This document shows positions 3,047-29,380 of a DNA stretch of 29,380 bases, piece after piece (the first letter of the stretch is position 1; every line of letters starts with the position of its first letter). Origin of the DNA: a virus. Below the pieces are notes generated by a model. It saw only the letters and a program-made list of their open reading frames with translations, had not been told where the DNA came from and made no database searches. The stretch covers positions 1 through 29,380 of IMG/VR virus record IMGVR_UViG_3300042369_000038, one strand, 5' to 3'. A program made the position numbers and the translations under genes.

Positions 3047-3472
3047 TCAATCCTTTGCACTAGTGATGATGTTAACTTTGATTTCAGAGATATCCTTACC
3101 ATTGGTAGTGATGTCTGATTTCTCAGTTAGATTGTTTAGTCTCTGAGTGATGGATGGATTAAATTGTCCTACCATACCTCCACTGATTTGGTCGTTTCTG
3201 ATTTCTCTCTTTATGTACGAACAGATAGTCCTATACTCAGAATATCTATTATCAGTGTTATCAAAATAATGATGACAATCTGAGTAATTCTTATAGCAGA
3301 ATATCTCAAATCCCTCATTAGTTAAAGGCACTCTCAAAGGCTCTGCCACCATCTCTGCAGTCTTTTGTGATAACACCCATTTATGTCTAGGATTATCTAG
3401 AGTATAAGCTCTATACTCCTCAAATATCTCCATCAGCTTCTCAGGAGTCTCTATTAGTTTAGTCCTGCCCAT
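3047..3472 (-). CDS. terS: Terminase small subunit
   Basis: 141-aa protein immediately upstream of terL. It resembles the gp3-type DNA-packaging protein family of Bacteroidetes phages. An N-terminal region (LIETPEKLMEIFEEYRAYT, about 6-24) precedes a central TNEGFEIFCY / DNRYSEYRTICSYIKREIR segment (about 51-95), then a VGQFNPSITQRL stretch (101-112) and a polar C-terminus. TerS recognises the packaging site and stimulates TerL. Its start overlaps the 76-aa gene by 14 nt. Assignment rests on position, size and the FEIFCY/SxYRTICSYIK/FNPSITQRL pattern. Confidence 0.8.
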   Translation of the reverse strand: MGRTKLIETPEKLMEIFEEYRAYTLDNPRHKWVLSQKTAEMVAEPLRVPLTNEGFEIFCYKNYSDCHHYFDNTDNRYSEYRTICSYIKREIRNDQISGGMVGQFNPSITQRLNNLTEKSDITTNGKDISEIKVNIITSAKD

Positions 3473-3689
3473 TGTCCTCCTCCTCTACTACAGGCTCATC
3501 TACTACAGGAGTAGGTATTGGTCCTTTGACTGCTTTATACTTCACTACTTTAGGCTCAGTTACAGTTGGCTCTTCAAACATATAGCCTAATCCTATAGAT
3601 ACAAAGTAATCATATCTATTAGCATCTAAAGTAATCCTGTTACCTTTGTGGGAGATCTTAGCTCCAATAAATTCATCTTTAATTTTCAT
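3459..3689 (-). CDS. Conserved hypothetical phage protein (76 aa)
   Basis: Small protein with an N-terminal beta-rich segment (MKIKDEFIGAKISHKG, LDANRYDYFVSIGLGYMFEE, about residues 1-40). The tail is Pro/Val/Glu-rich and acidic (residues 41-76). It overlaps the upstream sigma-like gene by 11 nt and terS by 14 nt, so translation is probably coupled. The GLGYMFEE pattern is familiar from small proteins of Bacteroidetes phages, but I know no function. Possibilities are a packaging accessory or a head decoration protein; neither is shown by the sequence. Confidence 0.65.
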   Translation of the reverse strand: MKIKDEFIGAKISHKGNRITLDANRYDYFVSIGLGYMFEEPTVTEPKVVKYKAVKGPIPTPVVDEPVVEEEDNGQD

Positions 3690-4206
3690 CTCTTAGGTTT
3701 TTTAAATCGGTTTTTATTTCTTGTATCCAATAGTGAGCAGATGTAACAGGTATTCTGAAATATTCTGCCATTGCTCTAGCTGTACTGTATCCTTTATCAA
3801 AGTAACATTGAAACACTATCAGCTTAATCCTATCTGTAATCCTACCTCTATATGTCTCTATCACTGCCATATTGTTCTGATACTGCATATCATCTCGTAT
3901 CTTATCGTATAAATCCGTATCATCATCCATCACTATCGGCATAGTACTATCTGTAGCTGTCACTCTCTCTTGCCTATTAGTTAGTGATGTAGACCATAGA
4001 ATCTGCATCTTAATAGTATTTAATAGATATGCTTTCACCTTACCGGGATCAGTTACCTCTATATCTATATTACATAAATATAAAAAAGAGTTATTTATTA
4101 CAGCATCAGCAGATATTGTAGACTTCATTCTTACTAGAAAATAGTTAGTATATTTCCTTATCTCTTTGTAGTGAGCTGATATGTAGTTGTCAAGTATAGG
4201 TCTCAT
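3679..4206 (-). CDS. Sigma-70-like (ECF-type) transcription factor, divergent
   Basis: 175 aa with the two-domain layout of an ECF sigma factor. Residues 8-75 (HYKEIRKYTNYFL ... INNSFLYL ... KVKAYLLNTIKMQI) resemble sigma region 2. Residues 118-170 (RGRITDRIKLIVFQCYFDKG ... STARAMAEYFRIPVTSAHYW) resemble the region 4 helix-turn-helix, joined by an acidic linker with MDDDTD. The gene sits just upstream of the terminase genes, a sensible place for a middle or late regulator. It may recognise the late motif found before four structural genes; that is inference. An alternative is a terminase-associated DNA-binding protein. Region 2 is divergent, so family membership needs a profile search. Confidence 0.55.
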   Translation of the reverse strand: MRPILDNYISAHYKEIRKYTNYFLVRMKSTISADAVINNSFLYLCNIDIEVTDPGKVKAYLLNTIKMQILWSTSLTNRQERVTATDSTMPIVMDDDTDLYDKIRDDMQYQNNMAVIETYRGRITDRIKLIVFQCYFDKGYSTARAMAEYFRIPVTSAHYWIQEIKTDLKNLRDEN

Positions 4207-4390
4207 ACCATTGCTTGAAATCCTTAAGCCATATCTTTCTCCTTACACTACTGCAGAAGCATTCTTTCTCATAACTAACTAGCCTATCTTTAATAGCTTT
4301 GAGTTTTAATAGATGAATCTTATAGGATTGCTCTTTCTCAGGTAGACTGAACACCTGTTGTATTATTACTTGCTCAGCTTCTGTAAACAT
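4190..4390 (-). CDS. Hypothetical small protein with CFC motif (66 aa)
   Basis: I choose the ATG at 4390 (MFTEAEQVI) over a longer frame from 4477. The longer version would overlap the membrane-protein gene by 112 nt and its extra residues are uncharacteristic. The protein is mostly helical: residues 1-40 carry PEKEQSYKIHLLKLKAIKDRL, and the end has ECFCSSVRRKIWLKDFKQWY. The CxC plus Arg/Lys-rich helix plus WY pattern recurs in small Bacteroidetes phage proteins, whose function I do not know. It overlaps the sigma-like gene by 17 nt. Confidence 0.6.
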   Translation of the reverse strand: MFTEAEQVIIQQVFSLPEKEQSYKIHLLKLKAIKDRLVSYEKECFCSSVRRKIWLKDFKQWYETYT

Positions 4391-4617
4391 TCCTGTAGTA
4401 TAAACGACAATAGAGCCACAATAGTTGCCTGAGCAAAAGACCAGGTGCAAATTAATGTTAGCCAAAAAGATACGCATTTAATACAGGTAGCAGAGGAATG
4501 TAGATACATTGCTAGAATGCTAGGTTTGAATTTGCTATAGATTGAGTCAATCAGTAGCTGTAATGGCTCAAAGTTTACTAGAAACCATGATACTGCAATG
4601 TAGGTTAGTATTATCAT
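4366..4617 (-). CDS. Small membrane protein with CxxC (83 aa)
   Basis: Two hydrophobic helices are visible: residues 1-25 (ILTYIAVSWFLVNFEPLQLL) and about 46-75 (CVSFWLTLICTWSF ... IVALLSFILQ). A CIKCVSFW motif lies at the start of the second. CxxCxxFW before a transmembrane helix is seen in small phage and bacterial inner-membrane proteins of unknown role. It is the first gene after the terminator at 4622-4652 and overlaps the 66-aa gene by 25 nt. A possible promoter lies right against its ATG, but the evidence for it is weak. Confidence 0.6.
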   Translation of the reverse strand: MIILTYIAVSWFLVNFEPLQLLIDSIYSKFKPSILAMYLHSSATCIKCVSFWLTLICTWSFAQATIVALLSFILQECLQKLSK

Positions 4618-4658: not shown

Positions 4659-4862
4659 TTATTGATTATTTAGATAATTTTTCCACCATTTGAGATAAAA
4701 CTGCTCATTGACAGCCTTACCATTAGTGAATCTCCAAATGGAGCAGTAAGAGACTCCGATATCCTCAGCATAATGACTGAGCTTATATCTATTGGTGAGC
4801 TTAGACTTGGTCTCTTTAATCATAAAGTCCTTAAGGCTCTCACCTTTAGAAAGGGAGATCAT
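4659..4862 (-). CDS. Small helix-turn-helix protein (about 67 aa)
   Basis: Last gene of the replication block. I prefer the ATG at 4862 (MISLSKGESLKDF), which overlaps the DUF3127 stop by 17 nt. The frame extends to 4883, and an ATG at 4823 is also possible. Residues from about 20 on (NRYKLSHYAEDIGVSYCSIW, then RFTNGKAVN) look like an XRE/Cro-type or phage-repressor-type helix-turn-helix. It ends in a Trp-rich helix (YLKWWKNYL). A regulatory role is likely. With no integrase in the genome there is no sign that it is a lysogeny repressor. A terminator follows directly. Confidence 0.55.
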   Translation of the reverse strand: MISLSKGESLKDFMIKETKSKLTNRYKLSHYAEDIGVSYCSIWRFTNGKAVNEQFYLKWWKNYLNNQ

Positions 4863-5166
4863 CTGCAGGATTATCAGGTACATGAGTTGCAGCTGCAGTT
4901 AATAGATCTATCTTCCATAACTCTAATGAGTTGAAATGCTTATCCTGCCATTCTCTACCTCTCAGATTGAATGATGCCTCTACCTCTTCACCTACTCTAC
5001 AGCCATCTAGTAGAGATGTTTTGTCTCCTGTAGCCTGTAAGGTGATGTATTGAGGATATTTCCCATCCTCTACGGTTATTACTACTTCTCTCTTAGAGAA
5101 CTTCTCAGTAACTTGTACTGTCTCACCTATCACTTTGATAAGTCCTTTTACTTTGTAATCATTCAT
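4846..5166 (-). CDS. DUF3127 protein, SSB-like OB-fold with acidic tail
   Basis: 106 aa matching DUF3127, a Bacteroidetes family thought to adopt an OB fold like single-strand DNA-binding proteins. Visible features are GLIKVIGETVQVTEKFSKRE (8-27), VGEEVEASFNLRGREW (about 58-73) and FNSLELWKIDLL. The C-terminus ends in DDLPF, very close to the DDDIPF-type tip by which SSB proteins recruit partners. It lies in an operon with ERF, an exonuclease and a primase-helicase, so it is probably the phage SSB. Its ATG overlaps the stop of a 30-aa membrane peptide (ATGA). Confidence 0.8.
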   Translation of the reverse strand: MNDYKVKGLIKVIGETVQVTEKFSKREVVITVEDGKYPQYITLQATGDKTSLLDGCRVGEEVEASFNLRGREWQDKHFNSLELWKIDLLTAAATHVPDNPADDLPF

Positions 5167-7128: not shown

Positions 7129-7683
7129 TTAATTTTCTGTTATTTTGCCTAAATATGAAAAATTTAAATAAGAAGCAATTTCAAAATGCACTCTAATTAT
7201 GTCATAATGAACTTTAGATAATTGTTTGTTTAATAACATTGTATTTTTTGAATTAATAATATCACTTTCATTTAAATTTTCAATTAAATTTTGCAATGAA
7301 TTAATAGCTAAAATAGATTGTGAAGTTTTTTTTTGCATTTCTATTAATTTATTTGAATCTAAATTAAAACTTAAATTTAAACAAGAAGGTAAAGATTTAT
7401 TATTAATCGGTTTCATATATTCAATTAATATTTTTTCCATAATTAATCTATGTTCTTTGTTTTCAATTAAAATAACTCTTGCATAACTCCAATCTTTATT
7501 ATCGTTTTTGCAATGCATCTGTAGTCTATTGTTTATGTTTTTTGTATGACCAATATAAATTAAATCATCATTTTTATCATATAACATATAAATACCACTA
7601 TCTTGAATTACAGGAATTATATCATAATAATAATAAGACATATTCCATTCACCTTGTCTTTTAATCTTTTTTAATTTTATCAT
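7129..7683 (-). CDS. GIY-YIG homing-type endonuclease, AT-rich insert
   Basis: 184 aa with a GIY-YIG nuclease domain: DSGIYMLYD (GIY 30-32), LIYIGHT (YIG 43-45), NNRLQMH (R53) and the glutamate E83, all catalytic positions. The rest is Asn/Leu/Lys-rich with no recognised DNA-binding module. Base composition is far more AT-rich than the neighbours: sampled 60-base stretches inside hold about 18-20% G+C, against about one third in the ERF gene. This suggests recent arrival as a mobile gene. The ATG at 7683 overlaps the primase-helicase TGA (ATGA). An ATG at 7641 (MSYYYY) is an alternative start. Confidence 0.85.
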   Translation of the reverse strand: MIKLKKIKRQGEWNMSYYYYDIIPVIQDSGIYMLYDKNDDLIYIGHTKNINNRLQMHCKNDNKDWSYARVILIENKEHRLIMEKILIEYMKPINNKSLPSCLNLSFNLDSNKLIEMQKKTSQSILAINSLQNLIENLNESDIINSKNTMLLNKQLSKVHYDIIRVHFEIASYLNFSYLGKITEN

Positions 7684-10123: not shown

Positions 10124-10156
10124 CAAATGTAATAATAATTATTAATACTTTACAAA
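10124..10156 (-). promoter_or_regulatory. Host-type promoter of the replication operon
   Basis: On the minus strand TTTG (10156-10153) is followed after 21 nt by TACATTTG (10131-10124). This fits the Bacteroidetes housekeeping consensus TTTG/TTG, about 17-23 nt, TAnnTTTG. The start would fall near 10118, just before the 5' strand of the leader pseudoknot. Confidence 0.75.
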
Positions 10157-10157
10157 G

Positions 10158-10407
10158 TGTGCAATCTTTTTTTATCAACATACAACTTTGCACAAACTTT
10201 GCACACCCAAAAGTTAGCAGTACCAAGGCTTTGTGCAAAGTTGGTCTTTTTTTTTACTTTTTTTTTTCATCCTGGTCTTATAGTATATATAGGGTAGGGG
10301 CTTTTTCTCAAAACTTTGCACAAATCAATCTAAATTATTGATAATCAATTCTATTTTATGTGCAATCTTTTGTGCAAAGTTGTAAGGACCATTTTAACAT
10401 TGCACAA
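10158..10407. repeat. Iteron array (AACTTTGCACAA), candidate replication origin
   Basis: The 12-mer AACTTTGCACAA occurs at 10184-10195 and 10312-10323, and as 11/12 at 10195-10206. Its complement TTGTGCAAAGTT occurs at 10231-10242 and 10370-10381. Partial copies with GTGCAAT or TTGCACAA lie at about 10158, 10359 and 10400. The first two overlap in tandem at 11-bp spacing, one helical turn. Long T runs (about 10246-10267) and an AT-rich stretch (10324-10358) lie within the array. The position between a DnaA-domain-IV-like gene and the primase-helicase gene fits an origin or operator. No open frame here looks real. Confidence 0.65.
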
Positions 10408-10426
10408 AAAAAGCCCCGAAGGGCTT
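10403..10426 (-). terminator. Rho-independent terminator of the early operon
   Basis: On the minus strand AAGCCC-TTCG-GGGCTT is followed by a run of T (TTTTT) and TGTGC. The hairpin begins in the stop codon of the DnaA-like gene and has a stable UUCG-type loop. It separates the early operon from the origin region. Confidence 0.85.
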
Positions 10427-10832
10427 AAATTATTTCAGCTAGTTCTTTAGCTGTCATATATTCTTTAAATTTATTGACCTTATCATACTCCCAAGGCATC
10501 TGAATCCTCACATTTATGTAATTGAACTTCTCTAATGCTGAGACTTTGTACTTATCCTCATAATCTAGATCATCTGCAGCTTGCACTAATGGCTCTATCT
10601 CATGGAGATATACTTTATCATGCATCCTAGACCATCTCCTGTGCATTCTGATACCATGTATAACAGTAGCATGATGTCTATTCATAAGCCTTCCTATTTC
10701 ACTAAGTGATAGCTTACATTTGTTTAGCCTGTACATTACATAGTATCTCTTATAGACATAGGCTCTATTCCTAGAGTTGGTAGCTAGTTTATACTTTATA
10801 ATTTGTTCTTTTAAAAATTTTAGTTCTGTCAT
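10425..10832 (-). CDS. DnaA domain-IV-like origin-binding protein (135 aa)
   Basis: Residues about 20-70 match the DNA-binding domain IV of DnaA: RAYVYKRYYVMYRLNK, LSLSEIGRLMNRHHATVIHG. The HHATVIHGI block (53-61) corresponds to the DnaA signature (DHTTVLHA). There is no AAA+ ATPase domain, so this is a stand-alone binding domain with a helical C-terminal extension. It lies next to the iteron array and could be its binding protein, helping load the primase-helicase. The iterons do not resemble the classical DnaA box TTATCCACA. The ATG overlaps the GIY-YIG stop (ATGA). Confidence 0.75.
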   Translation of the reverse strand: MTELKFLKEQIIKYKLATNSRNRAYVYKRYYVMYRLNKCKLSLSEIGRLMNRHHATVIHGIRMHRRWSRMHDKVYLHEIEPLVQAADDLDYEDKYKVSALEKFNYINVRIQMPWEYDKVNKFKEYMTAKELAEII

Positions 10833-11287
10833 TTTTTTGTATGTTTTTTAGTTCCTGCTATATTATATTTTGGCTTATATTTTTGTATAAAATTATTTTC
10901 CATTTCAAGAGCTTTATTACGATCATGCTCTTCAAAAAATTTTACTGTATCCCATTCTTTAATATTTTCTCTTGTATGTTCCCTTAATCTTGAATAAATA
11001 CAATTAGATACTCCAACATAAACTAAATTTTCATTATTAAATAATAAATAACATCCTTGATATAAATCAGGTTGAATTTCTTTAGCTTTTTTAAAATTTA
11101 TTCTACTAATTTTTTTAACACTATAATCTTCTTCTTCTCTTTCCCATTCGTATGAATATTTATTGGGAGGATTAATTAATAAATCTACTGCCCAATCATA
11201 TTCGGTATGAGGCTCTTGAAAATTTGAAACTAAATAACGATTTTCCCAAAGCGTGTATAGTATTATGTGTGCTTGTTTTTTAGTCAT
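10829..11287 (-). CDS. GIY-YIG endonuclease with N-terminal extension
   Basis: 152 aa. The nuclease domain occupies the C-terminal half: YQGCYLLFNN (GCY 78-80 in place of GIY), LVYVGVSN (YVG 90-92), SRLREHT (R100) and ALEMENNFI (E130), then YKPKYNIAG. The first 70 residues (HTEYDWAVDLLINPPNKYSY) are an unrecognised extension that may bind DNA. The gene is AT-richer than its neighbours. It is coupled by ATGA overlaps on both sides, so any past insertion has been fitted neatly into the operon. It is only distantly similar to the GIY-YIG protein at 7129. Confidence 0.8.
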   Translation of the reverse strand: MTKKQAHIILYTLWENRYLVSNFQEPHTEYDWAVDLLINPPNKYSYEWEREEEDYSVKKISRINFKKAKEIQPDLYQGCYLLFNNENLVYVGVSNCIYSRLREHTRENIKEWDTVKFFEEHDRNKALEMENNFIQKYKPKYNIAGTKKHTKK

Positions 11288-13087: not shown

Positions 13088-13095
13088 CAAAGATA
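13088..13095 (-). promoter_or_regulatory. Host-type promoter of the early operon
   Basis: The minus strand reads TATCTTTG, an exact TAnnTTTG box, 33 nt before the ATG at 13054. The -33 box is weak (TTATTG-like about 20 nt upstream). It is the only good host-type box in the gap, and all early genes lie downstream. Confidence 0.6.
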
Positions 13096-13288
13096 GTATA
13101 AAGTTTTATAACTGCAATAAAAAAGTGTAATTTATATTCATTCTAAATAAGGATAGGTCGCAATTTGCGACTGCAACCAACTTGGCGGAAATACCGACAG
13201 GTTAAAACCTTAAAACCTTTGCTATTATTAAGGTTATAGCCTTAAAAAGTCCAATTTATTTCGTAAAAAACGGGACATAATCTAAAGT

Positions 13289-13334
13289 GTTACTTTGGAA
13301 TTACATGATAAGTTACTTTGGAATTACATGATAA
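13289..13334. repeat. Perfect 23-bp tandem repeat, two copies
   Basis: GTTACTTTGGAATTACATGA followed by TAA occurs twice head to tail (13289-13311 and 13312-13334), directly followed by TCGGAATTATG, a partial echo. A spacing of about two helical turns would put two bound proteins on the same face, so an operator is likely. Confidence 0.8.
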
Positions 13335-17574: not shown

Positions 17575-17916
17575 TTACTCATAAATTGATTGTACTATTG
17601 GTCCACTTACTACCATCCTACCCTCTTCAATCACTACTCCTGTAGAGTTAGCAATAGTTGGAGGTGTGATATGTGACTCATAGATGCTATATGTATACTG
17701 TCCTTTGATTAGTTCCAAATCTACAGGCTCATCCAATAAAAACTGATTGAATCTTTCAGGATAAGCTGAGCTATCAGCAGTGTAGAATGTAATAGGTGCA
17801 GAAAGTTTGTCCATTTCATTCTGAAAGACAAACAAATAATAAGGATTCGGCAGTGTACTTACCTCTGTTAGGGTAAGGATAATCTGATTGACCTCATCTT
17901 TTTTAATGTATATCAT
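17575..17916 (-). CDS. Small virion-associated protein (113 aa)
   Basis: Beta-rich protein (MIYIKKDEVNQIILTLTEVS, TLPNPYYLFVFQNEMDKLSA, QYTYSIYES), familiar from Bacteroidetes phages and prophages next to portal or tail genes. I know no established function; head-tail joining or tail-tip decoration are possible. It begins 2 nt after a late promoter-like motif, which itself follows a terminator, so it must head its own transcript. It ends 3 nt before the portal gene. Confidence 0.65.
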   Translation of the reverse strand: MIYIKKDEVNQIILTLTEVSTLPNPYYLFVFQNEMDKLSAPITFYTADSSAYPERFNQFLLDEPVDLELIKGQYTYSIYESHITPPTIANSTGVVIEEGRMVVSGPIVQSIYE

Positions 17917-19528: not shown

Positions 19529-20494
19529 TTAGTTATTATTGTTTAAAAATTTACTTACCATACTGAACTTATCATGCTGTGATAATTTAGTAGCTTCTAC
19601 TTCCACTACTTCCTCACCTTCAGACATCACCTCTTCCATATGATTTCTTAAATCAGCTATCATTGCTATAATAGCATTGATTTGCTCATCAATTACAGGT
19701 TGAACTATAGCTAAGATAGCTTCAGCATCAGCAGCAGGATCAATAGCCATCTCTTCTGTGGCAGGTGTCTCCTCTATTACTTCCTCTTCTACTACTGTAT
19801 CTTCTAGTGCAATCTCTTCTGTCATTGCTTCTTCTTCAACAACAGGTGCATCTTTAATCTCGATAATCTCACCGTCTACTACGACATAGATCTTACCATC
19901 AATTAGATGTTCTCCATCAGGTAATTTATTCATACTATATTTATTATTTAATTGATTACTTAGTTTTAAGCCTAAGAATCCCTCAATAGAGAAACCTATC
20001 TGCTCATTCTTTACTAGCTCATTATAGTAATCTTTATCAGTTACCTGAGCTGTTACCATTAATGTGCCTTTAGGTACTTCAATACCATAGCTAGAGTAGG
20101 CTTTATCTTTCTTAGGATCTTCTACTATCCATGCCTCAAGTACATAAGCAGGTACAGTCTTATCAGTATCATGCTCTAGGTTAAATACATTCCTATTAGA
20201 TAGGTCTTGCATGAATTTAGAATGAATCTGCTCAATAGTCTCAGCTGTAAATTGTACATAGTACTCCTCATCATTCTCATCATTCCTATATATCTCCATT
20301 GGAATCATGGCAGGTGCTACCACTCTATACTTTAGCTCATCTGAAAAAAACAATTTCTTATGTTCATCAAATGCTAGACCTTTGGTAATAATGGCAGGAG
20401 TTGAGGTGAAAGCTATTTGCTCAATCCCTAACTCTTCACCATCTGAATACTCAGGATCTATAGTAATTTTATAGATTGGTATATCTTTTGTCAT
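19529..20494 (-). CDS. XkdF-like prohead protease fused to an acidic scaffold domain
   Basis: 321 aa. Residues about 78-180 match the XkdF putative serine protease: FNLEHDTDKTVPAYVLEAWI (H108 in LEHD), VPKGTLMVTAQVTD (140-153) and EQIGFSIEGFLG (S169). The C-terminal 110 residues are extremely acidic (EEEAMTEEIALEDTVVEEEV) and then helical (AILAIVQPVIDEQINAIIAM), like a coiled-coil scaffold. It ends with a basic segment that could bind capsid. Protease plus scaffold in one chain before the capsid gene is a known assembly layout. Heads its own late transcript. Confidence 0.8.
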   Translation of the reverse strand: MTKDIPIYKITIDPEYSDGEELGIEQIAFTSTPAIITKGLAFDEHKKLFFSDELKYRVVAPAMIPMEIYRNDENDEEYYVQFTAETIEQIHSKFMQDLSNRNVFNLEHDTDKTVPAYVLEAWIVEDPKKDKAYSSYGIEVPKGTLMVTAQVTDKDYYNELVKNEQIGFSIEGFLGLKLSNQLNNKYSMNKLPDGEHLIDGKIYVVVDGEIIEIKDAPVVEEEAMTEEIALEDTVVEEEVIEETPATEEMAIDPAADAEAILAIVQPVIDEQINAIIAMIADLRNHMEEVMSEGEEVVEVEATKLSQHDKFSMVSKFLNNNN

Positions 20495-20521
20495 AACTAT
20501 ATTATATTTTTTTTATATTTG
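20487..20521 (+). promoter_or_regulatory. Host-type promoter for the plus-strand gene pair
   Basis: TTTG (20487-20490) is followed after 23 nt by TATATTTG (20514-20521), matching the Bacteroidetes consensus at the long end of the spacing range. The start would lie near 20527, 11 nt before the ATG at 20538. Confidence 0.6.
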
Positions 20522-20537: not shown

Positions 20538-21116
20538 ATGATAGAATTATTCGGCAAAGAAATCCCATCTAAGATGGAGGAGCTAACACTAGAGCAGTTC
20601 CAAAAGATATCTGCTATCCATAACAGTGATGAGTATGATACCCTAGAGAAACATTGCAAAGTCTTTGAGTACTTAGGTATAACTGAGGAGGAGATGGATG
20701 TAGACTTTGAGCTGTTCTTAGAGAATGTTAAGTTGTTTAATAAAGATAACTATACTAAGAAAGATGCTGTTGAAGAGATAGAAATAGATGGCTATACTTA
20801 TAGAGCTGAGATGAAGCTATCAGTAAAAGATTCTAGGATTGTTGAAAAGATTGTTAAGAAAGATAATAAAGAATATATCTCTGAAATAATGGCTCTAATG
20901 TTCAAACGAACTGACCTATCTAATGCTGAGCATTATGATTCTGCACATCTAAAACACAAAGCTAAACTATTTAGTAAGCTCAAAGCAGATATAGCTATCC
21001 CTTACCTTACCTTTGTAACCTACAAAATAACAAACCATGCAGAATCTCAAGTTACCAAAGCATTGGAATCAGATATCAGTGAGTCAGTTCCTGGAGATCA
21101 GGAGTCTGAGCAGTGA
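20538..21116 (+). CDS. Tail-assembly-chaperone-like protein 1, plus strand (192 aa)
   Basis: Acidic, helical protein on the opposite strand to its neighbours. It starts MIELFGKEIPSKMEELTLEQ and has a central DGYTYRAEMKLSVKDSRIVE and an EIMALMFKRTDLSNAEHYDS block. The FGKEIPSKMEELTLEQF start is familiar from proteins coded just before tape-measure genes in Bacteroidetes phages. Position between tail tube and tape measure suggests the role of the gpG/gpGT chaperones that coat the tape measure during tail assembly. It overlaps the next gene by 80 nt in another frame and is paralogous to it. Role is inferred. Confidence 0.6.
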   Translation: MIELFGKEIPSKMEELTLEQFQKISAIHNSDEYDTLEKHCKVFEYLGITEEEMDVDFELFLENVKLFNKDNYTKKDAVEEIEIDGYTYRAEMKLSVKDSRIVEKIVKKDNKEYISEIMALMFKRTDLSNAEHYDSAHLKHKAKLFSKLKADIAIPYLTFVTYKITNHAESQVTKALESDISESVPGDQESEQ

Positions 21117-21765
21117 GGATGGAATGTTTAACTATCAGATTGATGTACTTTCTGCTTTAACTGATAGCAATATCTCTGAATTTGAGGAGCTAGATATAGA
21201 TGAGCTAAGTGAATTGACTAAGCAGATTAAATGGATACAGTCTGATCCATCTAGGAGGTATAAGAATAAGCTAGATAAGTATGTACTCAAGCCATTTAGT
21301 AAGCTATCATTAGGTGAGTTCATAGACCTAGAGTATTACTTCTCTAATAATTACCTAGACCACTTCTGCCATATCTTAGCATTACTCTACAGGAGGACAT
21401 CTAAGAACGTTTATGGTGATGATATCATTGAGCCTTATGAGTATAGTCCTAGAGATAGATTAGATTGGTATTTAGATTACCCAATTACTGATGTTTATGG
21501 ATTAATACCTGAGTATATTAAATTTAGGGAAAACTTTACTAATACCTATACTAATTTACTAGTAGATGTAGTGACTGATGATGAGGTGCTAGATGATCCT
21601 GATGAGATTAAAGAGCAGAAGAGAGAACAGCAAAAGCAGAAATTTGCTTGGGAGTCCACTATCATGGCTCTATGCAATGATGACCTAAGCAAGTTCAACG
21701 ATATCCTAGAGATGCCTGTAGTATTAGTCTTTAATATCTTAGGTATGAAAAAAACTTTAGACTAG
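21037..21765 (+). CDS. Tail-assembly-chaperone-like protein 2, plus strand, paralogue of the previous gene (242 aa)
   Basis: Starts MQNLKLPKHWNQISVSQFLE and later has DKYVLKPFSKLSLGEFIDLE, then HILALLYRRTSKNVYGDD. These align in order with the previous protein (LTLEQF with ISVSQF; MALMFKRT with LALLYRRT). It has an extra C-terminal part of about 60 residues: an acidic linker, a charged helix (EIKEQKREQQKQKF), then WESTIMALCNDD and ILEMPVVLVFNILG. It has its own ATG, so it is probably made by re-initiation and not by frameshifting. Its TAG shares the palindrome CTAG with the stop of the converging gene. Confidence 0.6.
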   Translation: MQNLKLPKHWNQISVSQFLEIRSLSSEDGMFNYQIDVLSALTDSNISEFEELDIDELSELTKQIKWIQSDPSRRYKNKLDKYVLKPFSKLSLGEFIDLEYYFSNNYLDHFCHILALLYRRTSKNVYGDDIIEPYEYSPRDRLDWYLDYPITDVYGLIPEYIKFRENFTNTYTNLLVDVVTDDEVLDDPDEIKEQKREQQKQKFAWESTIMALCNDDLSKFNDILEMPVVLVFNILGMKKTLD

Positions 21766-22166
21766 TAATCTAACTCTCCATAAAACTCTCCGAATAAAGG
21801 CTCAAATGAGAATAGTATATCTCCCCCTCTTTCTAGTATGTTATCTATTTCTAAGATAGGATATTTAGTTAAAAGATATTCAGTATATCCTCCCCAAATC
21901 TCTGCATAGATTCCATCCTCATCTAATGCTGCATCAAATTGCCTAAGTAGATTATAAGCTCCTATAGTTTGTGTACCATTATTTAGAAATCCAAAATAAT
22001 AAGCTGCTACAATTTGTATCCTTAAATTAAAGCTATCACTAATCTCTGCATTGATTCGTACTGAATCTACTAGAGTACCTGTGTCTACTAAGAAATTATT
22101 TCTAAGTACTCTTCTAAGTACTGTAGCCATCTTTCTACGCATTGGATATTTTATATTGTAAGGCAT
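21762..22166 (-). CDS. Neck / tail-completion protein, HK97 gp10-like (134 aa)
   Basis: A basic N-terminus (MPYNIKYPMRRKMATVLRRV) is followed by RNNFLVDTGTLVDSVRINAE, the 'long enough, tagged with TGxLxxS' feature of gp10-like neck proteins. Then come AAYYFGFLNNGTQTIGAYNL and an acidic C-terminus. Such proteins join head and tail. It appears to be a single-gene transcript: it has its own late motif 2 nt before the ATG, and it converges tail-to-tail with the plus-strand pair, overlapping stops within CTAG (21762-21765). Confidence 0.6.
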   Translation of the reverse strand: MPYNIKYPMRRKMATVLRRVLRNNFLVDTGTLVDSVRINAEISDSFNLRIQIVAAYYFGFLNNGTQTIGAYNLLRQFDAALDEDGIYAEIWGGYTEYLLTKYPILEIDNILERGGDILFSFEPLFGEFYGELDY

Positions 22167-28995: not shown

Positions 28996-29380
28996 TTAAA
29001 TTGTATGTATTCTTACTGCTCGGACTGATAAGTTACTGCTCTTAACAGATGTGAATTGAGAACCATCACCAGTAAAAAAAGCATTTACACTATTAGCTGC
29101 TGCTTCTGTAGAACTCCAATATATAGAATTAAGAAACCCATTTGTTGAGCCTAAAACTCTATTTACAATAGCAGCTGAATTATAACACATATTTAACTCC
29201 CAAATTGCAGGTAAATACCAATCTGAAAAACCACCATCTGCAAAAAGTCTTGCTCTTCCTGCAGCATAAGCTGTAGTCGCCGGGAGAAGTGTTTGTGCTA
29301 TAATTGCATTAGTATTTGTAAGACCATCTGAATAACTTCGAGCTGTAGCACCTATTGCAATAGTTTGAAATGCTGGTATT
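28996..29380 (-). CDS. Tail fibre C-terminal domain, DUF1566/Lcl-like (same gene as 1-1383)
   Basis: C-terminal part of the fibre gene; bases 29299-29380 duplicate 1-82. The last roughly 85 residues carry the hallmarks of the DUF1566/Lcl, C-type-lectin-like fold: DGGFSDWYLPAIWEL, then YWSSTE, and a closing VRAVRI strand. Such domains often cap phage and bacterial adhesins. Some are the variable part of diversity-generating retroelements, but no reverse transcriptase or template repeat is present here. The shorter frame starting with Met at 29190 is only the end of this protein and not a separate gene. Domain assignment is by motif recognition. Confidence 0.75.
   Translation of the reverse strand, partial: IPAFQTIAIGATARSYSDGLTNTNAIIAQTLLPATTAYAAGRARLFADGGFSDWYLPAIWELNMCYNSAAIVNRVLGSTNGFLNSIYWSSTEAAANSVNAFFTGDGSQFTSVKSSNLSVRAVRIHTI
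29299..29380. repeat. Terminal direct repeat, right copy (circular contig end)
   Basis: Exact copy of bases 1-82. It marks closure of the circle. A true short terminal redundancy of the packaged DNA is possible but less likely, because it lies inside a coding region. Confidence 0.95.

Follow-up and report, generated by a model that had tools for sequence, protein, structure and literature searches.

A putative ECF-like sigma factor and its candidate two-box late promoters in an uncultured phage and its relatives

T4 gp55 and SPO1 gp28/gp33-34 are phage sigma factors for middle or late transcription, with architectures and promoters other than those considered here. Bacterial ECF sigma factors, in turn, possess only sigma2 and sigma4 domains connected by a flexible linker (E. 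coli sigma-E and SigW, described by the profile TIGR02937), and "AAC" is typical of the -35 box of their promoters. One more class of small late regulators, RinA/ArpU of Gram-positive phages, is encoded before the terminase genes and is thought to turn on the late genes; these regulators are not known to act as sigma factors, and the protein described below is unlike them in having both sigma halves and a candidate two-box promoter. The closest proven case appears to be SaPh711_gp47 of the Salmonella phage 7-11, one of the phiEco32-like phages, which in vitro reads bipartite late promoters GTAAtg-(16)-aCTA (PMC8948821). Like gp47, our candidate is phage-encoded, has a region-4-like C-terminus and is associated with two-box putative late promoters with a 16-nt spacer, present in few copies before structural genes, while the early genes would be left to the host sigma factor (PMC8948821). 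Unlike 7-11, with its GTAAtg and aCTA elements (PMC8948821), the boxes here are [A/G]AACA and TAATATAG; gp47 is proven in vitro whereas the sigma factor here is predicted, and no tblastn match among cultured phages connects the two. The product of phi32_gp36 from phiEco32 is comparable as a phage sigma for middle and late genes using an AT-rich -10-like element, but its promoter consists of a single element, tAATGTAtA, and it is reported to have no region 4 homology (PMC8948821). An earlier genome-only prediction for 7-11 proposed a different motif (PMC4331800), which cautions against relying on motifs by themselves, and the safeguard adopted here is co-occurrence and concerted change across many genomes.

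The window, by which we mean the whole stretch of DNA analysed, is an IMG/VR record of 29,380 bases. Because an 82-base direct repeat occupies both of its ends (1-82 and 29299-29380) the record is very likely complete, and the genome, about 29.3 kb long, is probably either circular or terminally redundant. A tail-fibre-like reading frame seems to cross the record ends, with an Lcl_C-like C-terminus at 28996-29190 (E 0.0017). Nearly all genes are carried by the minus strand, including the intact ORF of the 175-aa sigma-like protein at 3679-4206, whose boundaries had been given exactly by a sequence-only reading that left out its strand. This ORF is a real gene; among the matches listed, 199 IMG/VR loci have an intact relative of 165-195 aa, a length filter that left out eight further loci with a 196-aa version. 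The same reading had placed it just before the terminase genes, and the transcription order on the minus strand bears this out: the sigma gene is followed directly by a 76-aa ORF (3459-3689) and then by the genes of the small (TerS, 3047-3472; phrog_606, E 1.3e-11) and large (TerL, 1767-2936; phrog_2, E 1.2e-38) terminase subunits. Relatives of these terminases belong to phages of Flavobacterium, Bacteroides and Parabacteroides, and together with the TAnnTTTG boxes described below they point to a host among Bacteroidota.

Segments resembling sigma regions 2 and 4, noticed from the letters alone, turned out to be real, although with one sequence as query their signal is too faint to decide the matter. 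Taken alone, the window protein has one NCBIfam match, the Bacteroidota sigma-70 model TIGR02985 (E 0.016), and none in Pfam or PHROG. When 38 relatives were compared with NCBIfam, sigma models made up eight of the 12 families matched (best TIGR02937, E 1.9e-4), the two commonest being found in 13 and 12 of the 38 aligned members, and in the distant relative G058 the general ECF model TIGR02937 covers positions 3-163 of 165 (E 2.6e-8). Pfam searches over the family gave weak matches to Mga, DUF7437 and others. Sigma models run over whole genomes matched a single gene, the sigma gene, both in the window and in those relatives that gave a match, which for TIGR02937 were three of 24 records, the remaining 21 giving none. 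No member of the family passes the curated sigma or ECF cut-offs of the NCBIfam models, the best TIGR02937 score being 27.8 bits against 42.9 and that of the window protein with TIGR02985 14.9-15.5 against 126.4, and for this reason we call the protein "ECF-like" and do not name it as an ECF member. RinA/ArpU families were absent from the NCBIfam, Pfam and PHROG matches of the window protein and 37 relatives at E up to 0.1, in libraries that presumably hold RinA/ArpU models. Five scans of the viral_contigs collection gathered at least 465 relatives, down to about 43-45% identity. Sequence searches of the PDB yielded no solved-structure match, tblastn of the window protein against 50,697 cultured-phage records gave no match at E up to 1 (the distant relative L102 had a chance-like one only), and no relative was found in the genome_contigs collection of 84,980 species.

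An AlphaFold2 model built on the alignment of 38 relatives reached pLDDT 78, as against 52 for an earlier, poor AlphaFold model on a shallow alignment. Its helices (2-27, 33-46 and 54-84, then 97-122, 126-136, 143-150 and 154-174) form a region-2-like part with three helices, then a linker modelled as disordered, then a C-terminal half with four helices, so that region 2 would span about residues 1-85, the low-confidence linker 77-94 and region 4 about 97-175, with a predicted recognition helix at about 154-174. The model thus has the two-domain trait of ECF factors, sigma2 and sigma4 and neither sigma1.1 nor sigma3, and both halves have structural matches. Foldseek against the PDB gave no match at E 1e-3 or better, which we think is because the two halves are packed differently in the model; the best, 9n9q_C (E 4.8e-3), we take from its title to be the sigma chain in a complex for RNA-guided transcription. 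A sigma factor or transcription complex is named in 24 of the best 25 rows, row 12 being the exception, and ECF factors are the top structural neighbours. The unrelated fold which the sequence-only reading had named as speaking against it did not appear, the PDB neighbours being almost all sigma factors. Compared separately, the region 4 half aligns with 3mzy over 70 residues (2.1 A, Z 8.6) and the region 2 half with 5uxx over 80 residues (2.5 A, Z 8.1), values that are not decisive given the aligner's own caution that helical folds with Z under about 13 may share a common arrangement. The sigma assignment therefore relies on the agreement of sequence, fold and context and not on the Z values alone; sequence and modelled fold point to a two-domain (sigma2 plus sigma4), very divergent ECF-like sigma factor.

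The sequence TAATATAGTTAT occurs in the window exactly four times, at 1747, 17928, 20504 and 22178, always on the minus strand and always running directly into a start codon; we took these to be the four motif sites of the initial reading. Each forms part of a box pair, [A/G]AACA-N15/16-TAATATAG, whose end lies 2-4 nt ahead of a late gene's start codon, and such pairs number four in the window against 0.2 in shuffles. P1 (1740-1768) reads AAACA-N16-TAATATAG followed by TT and the ATG of gene 1387-1737 (g1), in the block after TerL. P2 (17921-17949), with AAACA-N16-TAATATAG and TTAT, precedes the conserved gene 17575-17916 (g2), after which come the portal, holin and endopeptidase genes. P3 (20497-20524), GAACA-N15-TAATATAG and TT, stands before the head protease/structural gene 19529-20494 (g3), next to which comes the capsid gene, and P4 (22171-22199), GAACA-N16-TAATATAG and TTAT, before the neck/tail-completion gene 21762-22166 (g4); all four are on the minus strand and all four genes start with ATG. 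We call these genes "late" because they are virion genes, following established phage biology. The motif before the structural genes is distinct from the host consensus. The bipartite geometry ascribed to it from the start, that of an ECF-type promoter, fits, with AAC in the upstream box and a spacer of 15-16 nt; the -10 box, however, is the AT-rich TAATATAG, unlike the ECF box of CGT type reported for F. psychrophilum (PMC9723704).

Across 47 phage records that encode the sigma protein, one of them the window, we counted 203 box pairs against 11.0 in shuffles. In 178 of them an ORF with 40 codons or more starts no further than 12 nt downstream (0.67 in shuffles); without exception these 178 share the strand of the sigma gene, and their boxes are separated by a spacer of 16 nt in 140 cases and 15 nt in 38. 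When orthologues were counted without regard to the motif, the pair preceded g1 in 10 of 11, g2 in 42 of 44, g3 in 35 of 46 and g4 in 28 of 46, and, outside these, gene 27435 in 11 of 44 and the 76-aa ORF in 2 of 47, while for each of 16 other genes tested it preceded 0 of 42-47 orthologues. The g3 orthologues having no site are explained partly by contig cuts and partly by variants such as TTACA or TAACA. Several of the 25 pairs with no such start codon within 12 nt are copies of a single conserved site, which in genomes of classes B and C of the -10 box (defined below) comes immediately after the sigma gene, inside a coding stretch. At this site (G007 1457-1485 and its equivalents) synonymous codon changes follow the -10 class, and the packaging genes may have an internal promoter here.

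All 33 records picked by sigma homology alone carry 3-5 start-linked sites. In the reverse direction, viral_contigs was scanned with the motif only and 24 longer records were checked: in 16 the motif occurs 3-6 times on one strand, with one extra copy on the opposite strand in a single record, and all 16 have the sigma gene. The eight records that do not have it show either 1-3 dispersed copies or, in sequences of 56 kb and 249 kb, 6 and 12 copies divided between the two strands; these counts are chance-like, the largest of these records giving a number similar to that of a reversed-pattern control. Relatives keeping the motif in the absence of the gene, which the sequence-only reading had itself named as evidence against the pairing, were thus not encountered among these 24 records, and its pairing of the sigma-like protein with the late motif gains support from the structural and co-occurrence checks alike. 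Its view of this protein as the only clear candidate holds in part. Two other DNA-binding candidates for the main reader of the motif were rejected, since the HTH protein at 4659-4883 has a homologue in 24 of 35 near-complete relatives, leaving 11 motif-bearing ones that do without it, and the DnaA-like protein at 10425-10832 has one in 28 of 35, leaving 7. On the other hand, three small neighbouring ORFs (3459-3689, 4190-4477 and 4366-4617) are as universal as the sigma gene itself. One of them, a 95-aa ORF on the minus strand (4190-4477) just upstream of the sigma gene and overlapping it, is found in 35 of 35 near-complete relatives and has a weak similarity to phrog_35393 (E 0.0031) but no informative family match; it is a possible partner of the sigma factor, an anti-sigma or a co-factor. 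The small ORF at 4366-4617, also just upstream of the sigma gene, overlaps the former and is equally present in 35 of 35; one of these two may play such a part.

The -10 box exists in three classes, which were assigned after the sites had been seen: A, the window's own, TAATATAG; B, TAATATA[T/A]; and C, GCAA[T/C]ATA, read as GCAATATA or GCAACATA. Within one genome nearly all late sites share a class, that is, they change together, while the [A/G]AACA box is constant across classes and so is most of the recognition helix. An exception is the G015-G018 clade, of class TAATATAG, in which the site located at the sigma gene's 3' end has CAATATAG instead. On the sigma tree the three classes need two changes, the minimum, and class A is split from B and C with 97% support. 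Portal and g3 trees also need two changes, the TerL and MCP trees three. The MCP tree joins the window's clade with class B (support 100), and class A as one clade is rejected by the data for MCP (p 3.5e-56) and TerL (p 0.018), from which it follows that capsid genes moved between lineages and the promoter class did not follow them. Nevertheless, covariation fails to single out the sigma gene, since portal and g3 trees fit equally and the rival sigma grouping, which unites the window's clade and class B, is compatible with the data (AU p 0.376). Residues 72-75 of the sigma protein, QNLD in class C against mostly [S/N]TSx elsewhere, are only a suggestion for the class determinant, because seventeen alignment columns separate class C from A and B.

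Among the 178 start-linked pairs the start codon follows TAATATA after 3 nt in 112, 5 nt in 42, 4 nt in 22 and 1 nt in 2. The flavobacterial -7 box lies at -12 to -5 (PMC9723704), and by this analogy transcription would start on the AUG or within about 2 nt of it, so that the late mRNAs should be leaderless; the predicted start sites are the weakest step of the explanation. In phage 7-11 the promoter element and the proven start sites are 6-9 bp apart (PMC8948821), and with such spacing some starts here would fall inside or after the AUG. Such messages would be uncommon for bacteria of this group: leaderless mRNAs constitute 5.5% of those mapped in F. psychrophilum (PMC9723704), and of the leaders predicted in F. 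johnsoniae 87% are longer than 10 nt (PMC6847099).

At the head-protease locus the candidate late promoter meets one of host type. On the plus strand, the -7 box TATATTTG (consensus TAnnTTTG) at 20514-20521 shares two bases with the P3 GAACA box and is followed downstream by a divergent gene at 20538-21116, present in 46 of 46 relatives. All 38 exact head-protease sites have the 15-nt spacer, and all 38 have TAnnTTTG on the opposite strand; it is TATATTTG in 33, and the other five differ only at the two n positions. The stretch 20538-21765 contains two rightward genes in an otherwise leftward genome, found in 46 and 45 of 46 relatives, which are probably driven by the host polymerase. As the boxes share two base pairs on opposite strands, holoenzymes with the phage sigma and with host sigma-A would presumably not fit there together, and the overlap suggests competition of two polymerases at this locus. 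Two more candidate host promoters, both on the minus strand, are TTG-N19-TATCTTTG (13088-13117), before early genes, and TTG-N21-TACATTTG (10124-10155), before the primase/helicase gene in the run that leads to the sigma gene; since host-type matches in the window number 4 against 2.4 in shuffles, it is position that speaks for them. Upstream of the candidate early promoter, at 13289-13329, there are two exact 18-base repeats, ATGTAATTCCAAAGTAAC, 23 bases from start to start, possibly the site of a regulator.

Elsewhere in the window, five copies of TTTGCACA (1.3 expected) are gathered at 10187-10378, between the primase/helicase gene and the gene of the DnaA-domain-IV-like protein 10425-10832 (PF08299, E 3.7e-10), a candidate origin of phage replication, to which the phage's own DnaA-like protein would bind. 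A GIY-YIG nuclease gene at 7129-7683 lies in a low-GC stretch (26%), has a homologue in none of 46 relatives and is likely a recent homing-endonuclease insertion; a second one (10829-11287) is found in one of 46.

Taken together, the gene very probably encodes a phage two-domain ECF-like sigma factor which directs the host core polymerase to the four two-box late promoters. Early genes would probably be read by host RNA polymerase from host-type promoters TTG-N19/21-TAnnTTTG, and the sigma factor would be made from this early run, late in which its gene stands. It would then join the host core polymerase, and we infer that the resulting holoenzyme acts at [A/G]AACA-N15/16-TAATATAG, the C-terminal domain presumably reading the invariant [A/G]AACA box and the N-terminal domain the TAATATA box, whose closeness to the start codon would make late messages begin at the AUG or within a few bases of it.

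The protein might instead be a sigma-like activator, similar to RinA/ArpU, which binds the upstream box and recruits the host sigma-A holoenzyme without any replacement of sigma. A position before the terminase genes is common to these regulators, and the best structural alignment is that of the region-4-like half, but the region-2-like half is also present and conserved, whole-chain matches are to sigma factors, the -10 box is unlike the host TAnnTTTG and varies by clade, and the fixed 15-16 nt spacing is that of a sigma promoter, all of which makes such an activator rather improbable. Still less credit can be given to the motif being read by an alternative sigma of the host, with some other role left for the phage protein. 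Flavobacteria do have several ECF sigma factors (PMC9723704), and different hosts could be mirrored by the clade differences in the -10 box; against this, motif and gene go together in 33 of 33 sigma-selected records and in all 16 motif-rich records selected by motif, and the flavobacterial alternative motifs given in the published account, a CGT -10 box and TAnnTTGY, are different (PMC9723704).

Nor does it seem at all probable that TAATATAG before the ATG serves as a translation-initiation or repressor site with no promoter involved. Its location 2-4 nt before the start codon agrees with this, A-rich bases there promoting initiation in Flavobacterium (PMC6847099), but a second box accompanies it at a constant distance of 15-16 nt, and the pair is seen only before the first gene of late blocks and never before genes within them (none of 42-47 orthologues for any of the 16 genes mentioned above).

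As a kind of regulator the phage late sigma is already known; what looks new is the family, its promoter, the fusion of the latter with the start codon and the overlapping host box, and we found no description of this sigma family or motif in the open-access literature. Phage late sigma factors are known from few cultured phages, whereas the present family recurs in hundreds of virus contigs, so that a small freshwater phage and hundreds of its uncultured relatives seem to carry a divergent sigma factor of their own. The natural series of sigma factors with matched changes of the -10 box makes specificity testable by swapping. If start sites are as predicted, the system would be a clear example of late messages translated without leaders, in hosts that make no use of Shine-Dalgarno sequences, and possibly an orthogonal promoter/sigma pair for Bacteroidota. 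More tentatively, and with more doubt than confidence, overlapping divergent promoters, leaderless late mRNAs and co-evolving sigma and boxes might constitute a self-contained early/late switch in hundreds of uncultured phages. If so, the phage sigma would shut off the rightward host-driven genes in the very act of starting the leftward virion operon, and every late operon would be expressed from leaderless messages, in a phylum where leaderless mRNAs are a small minority.
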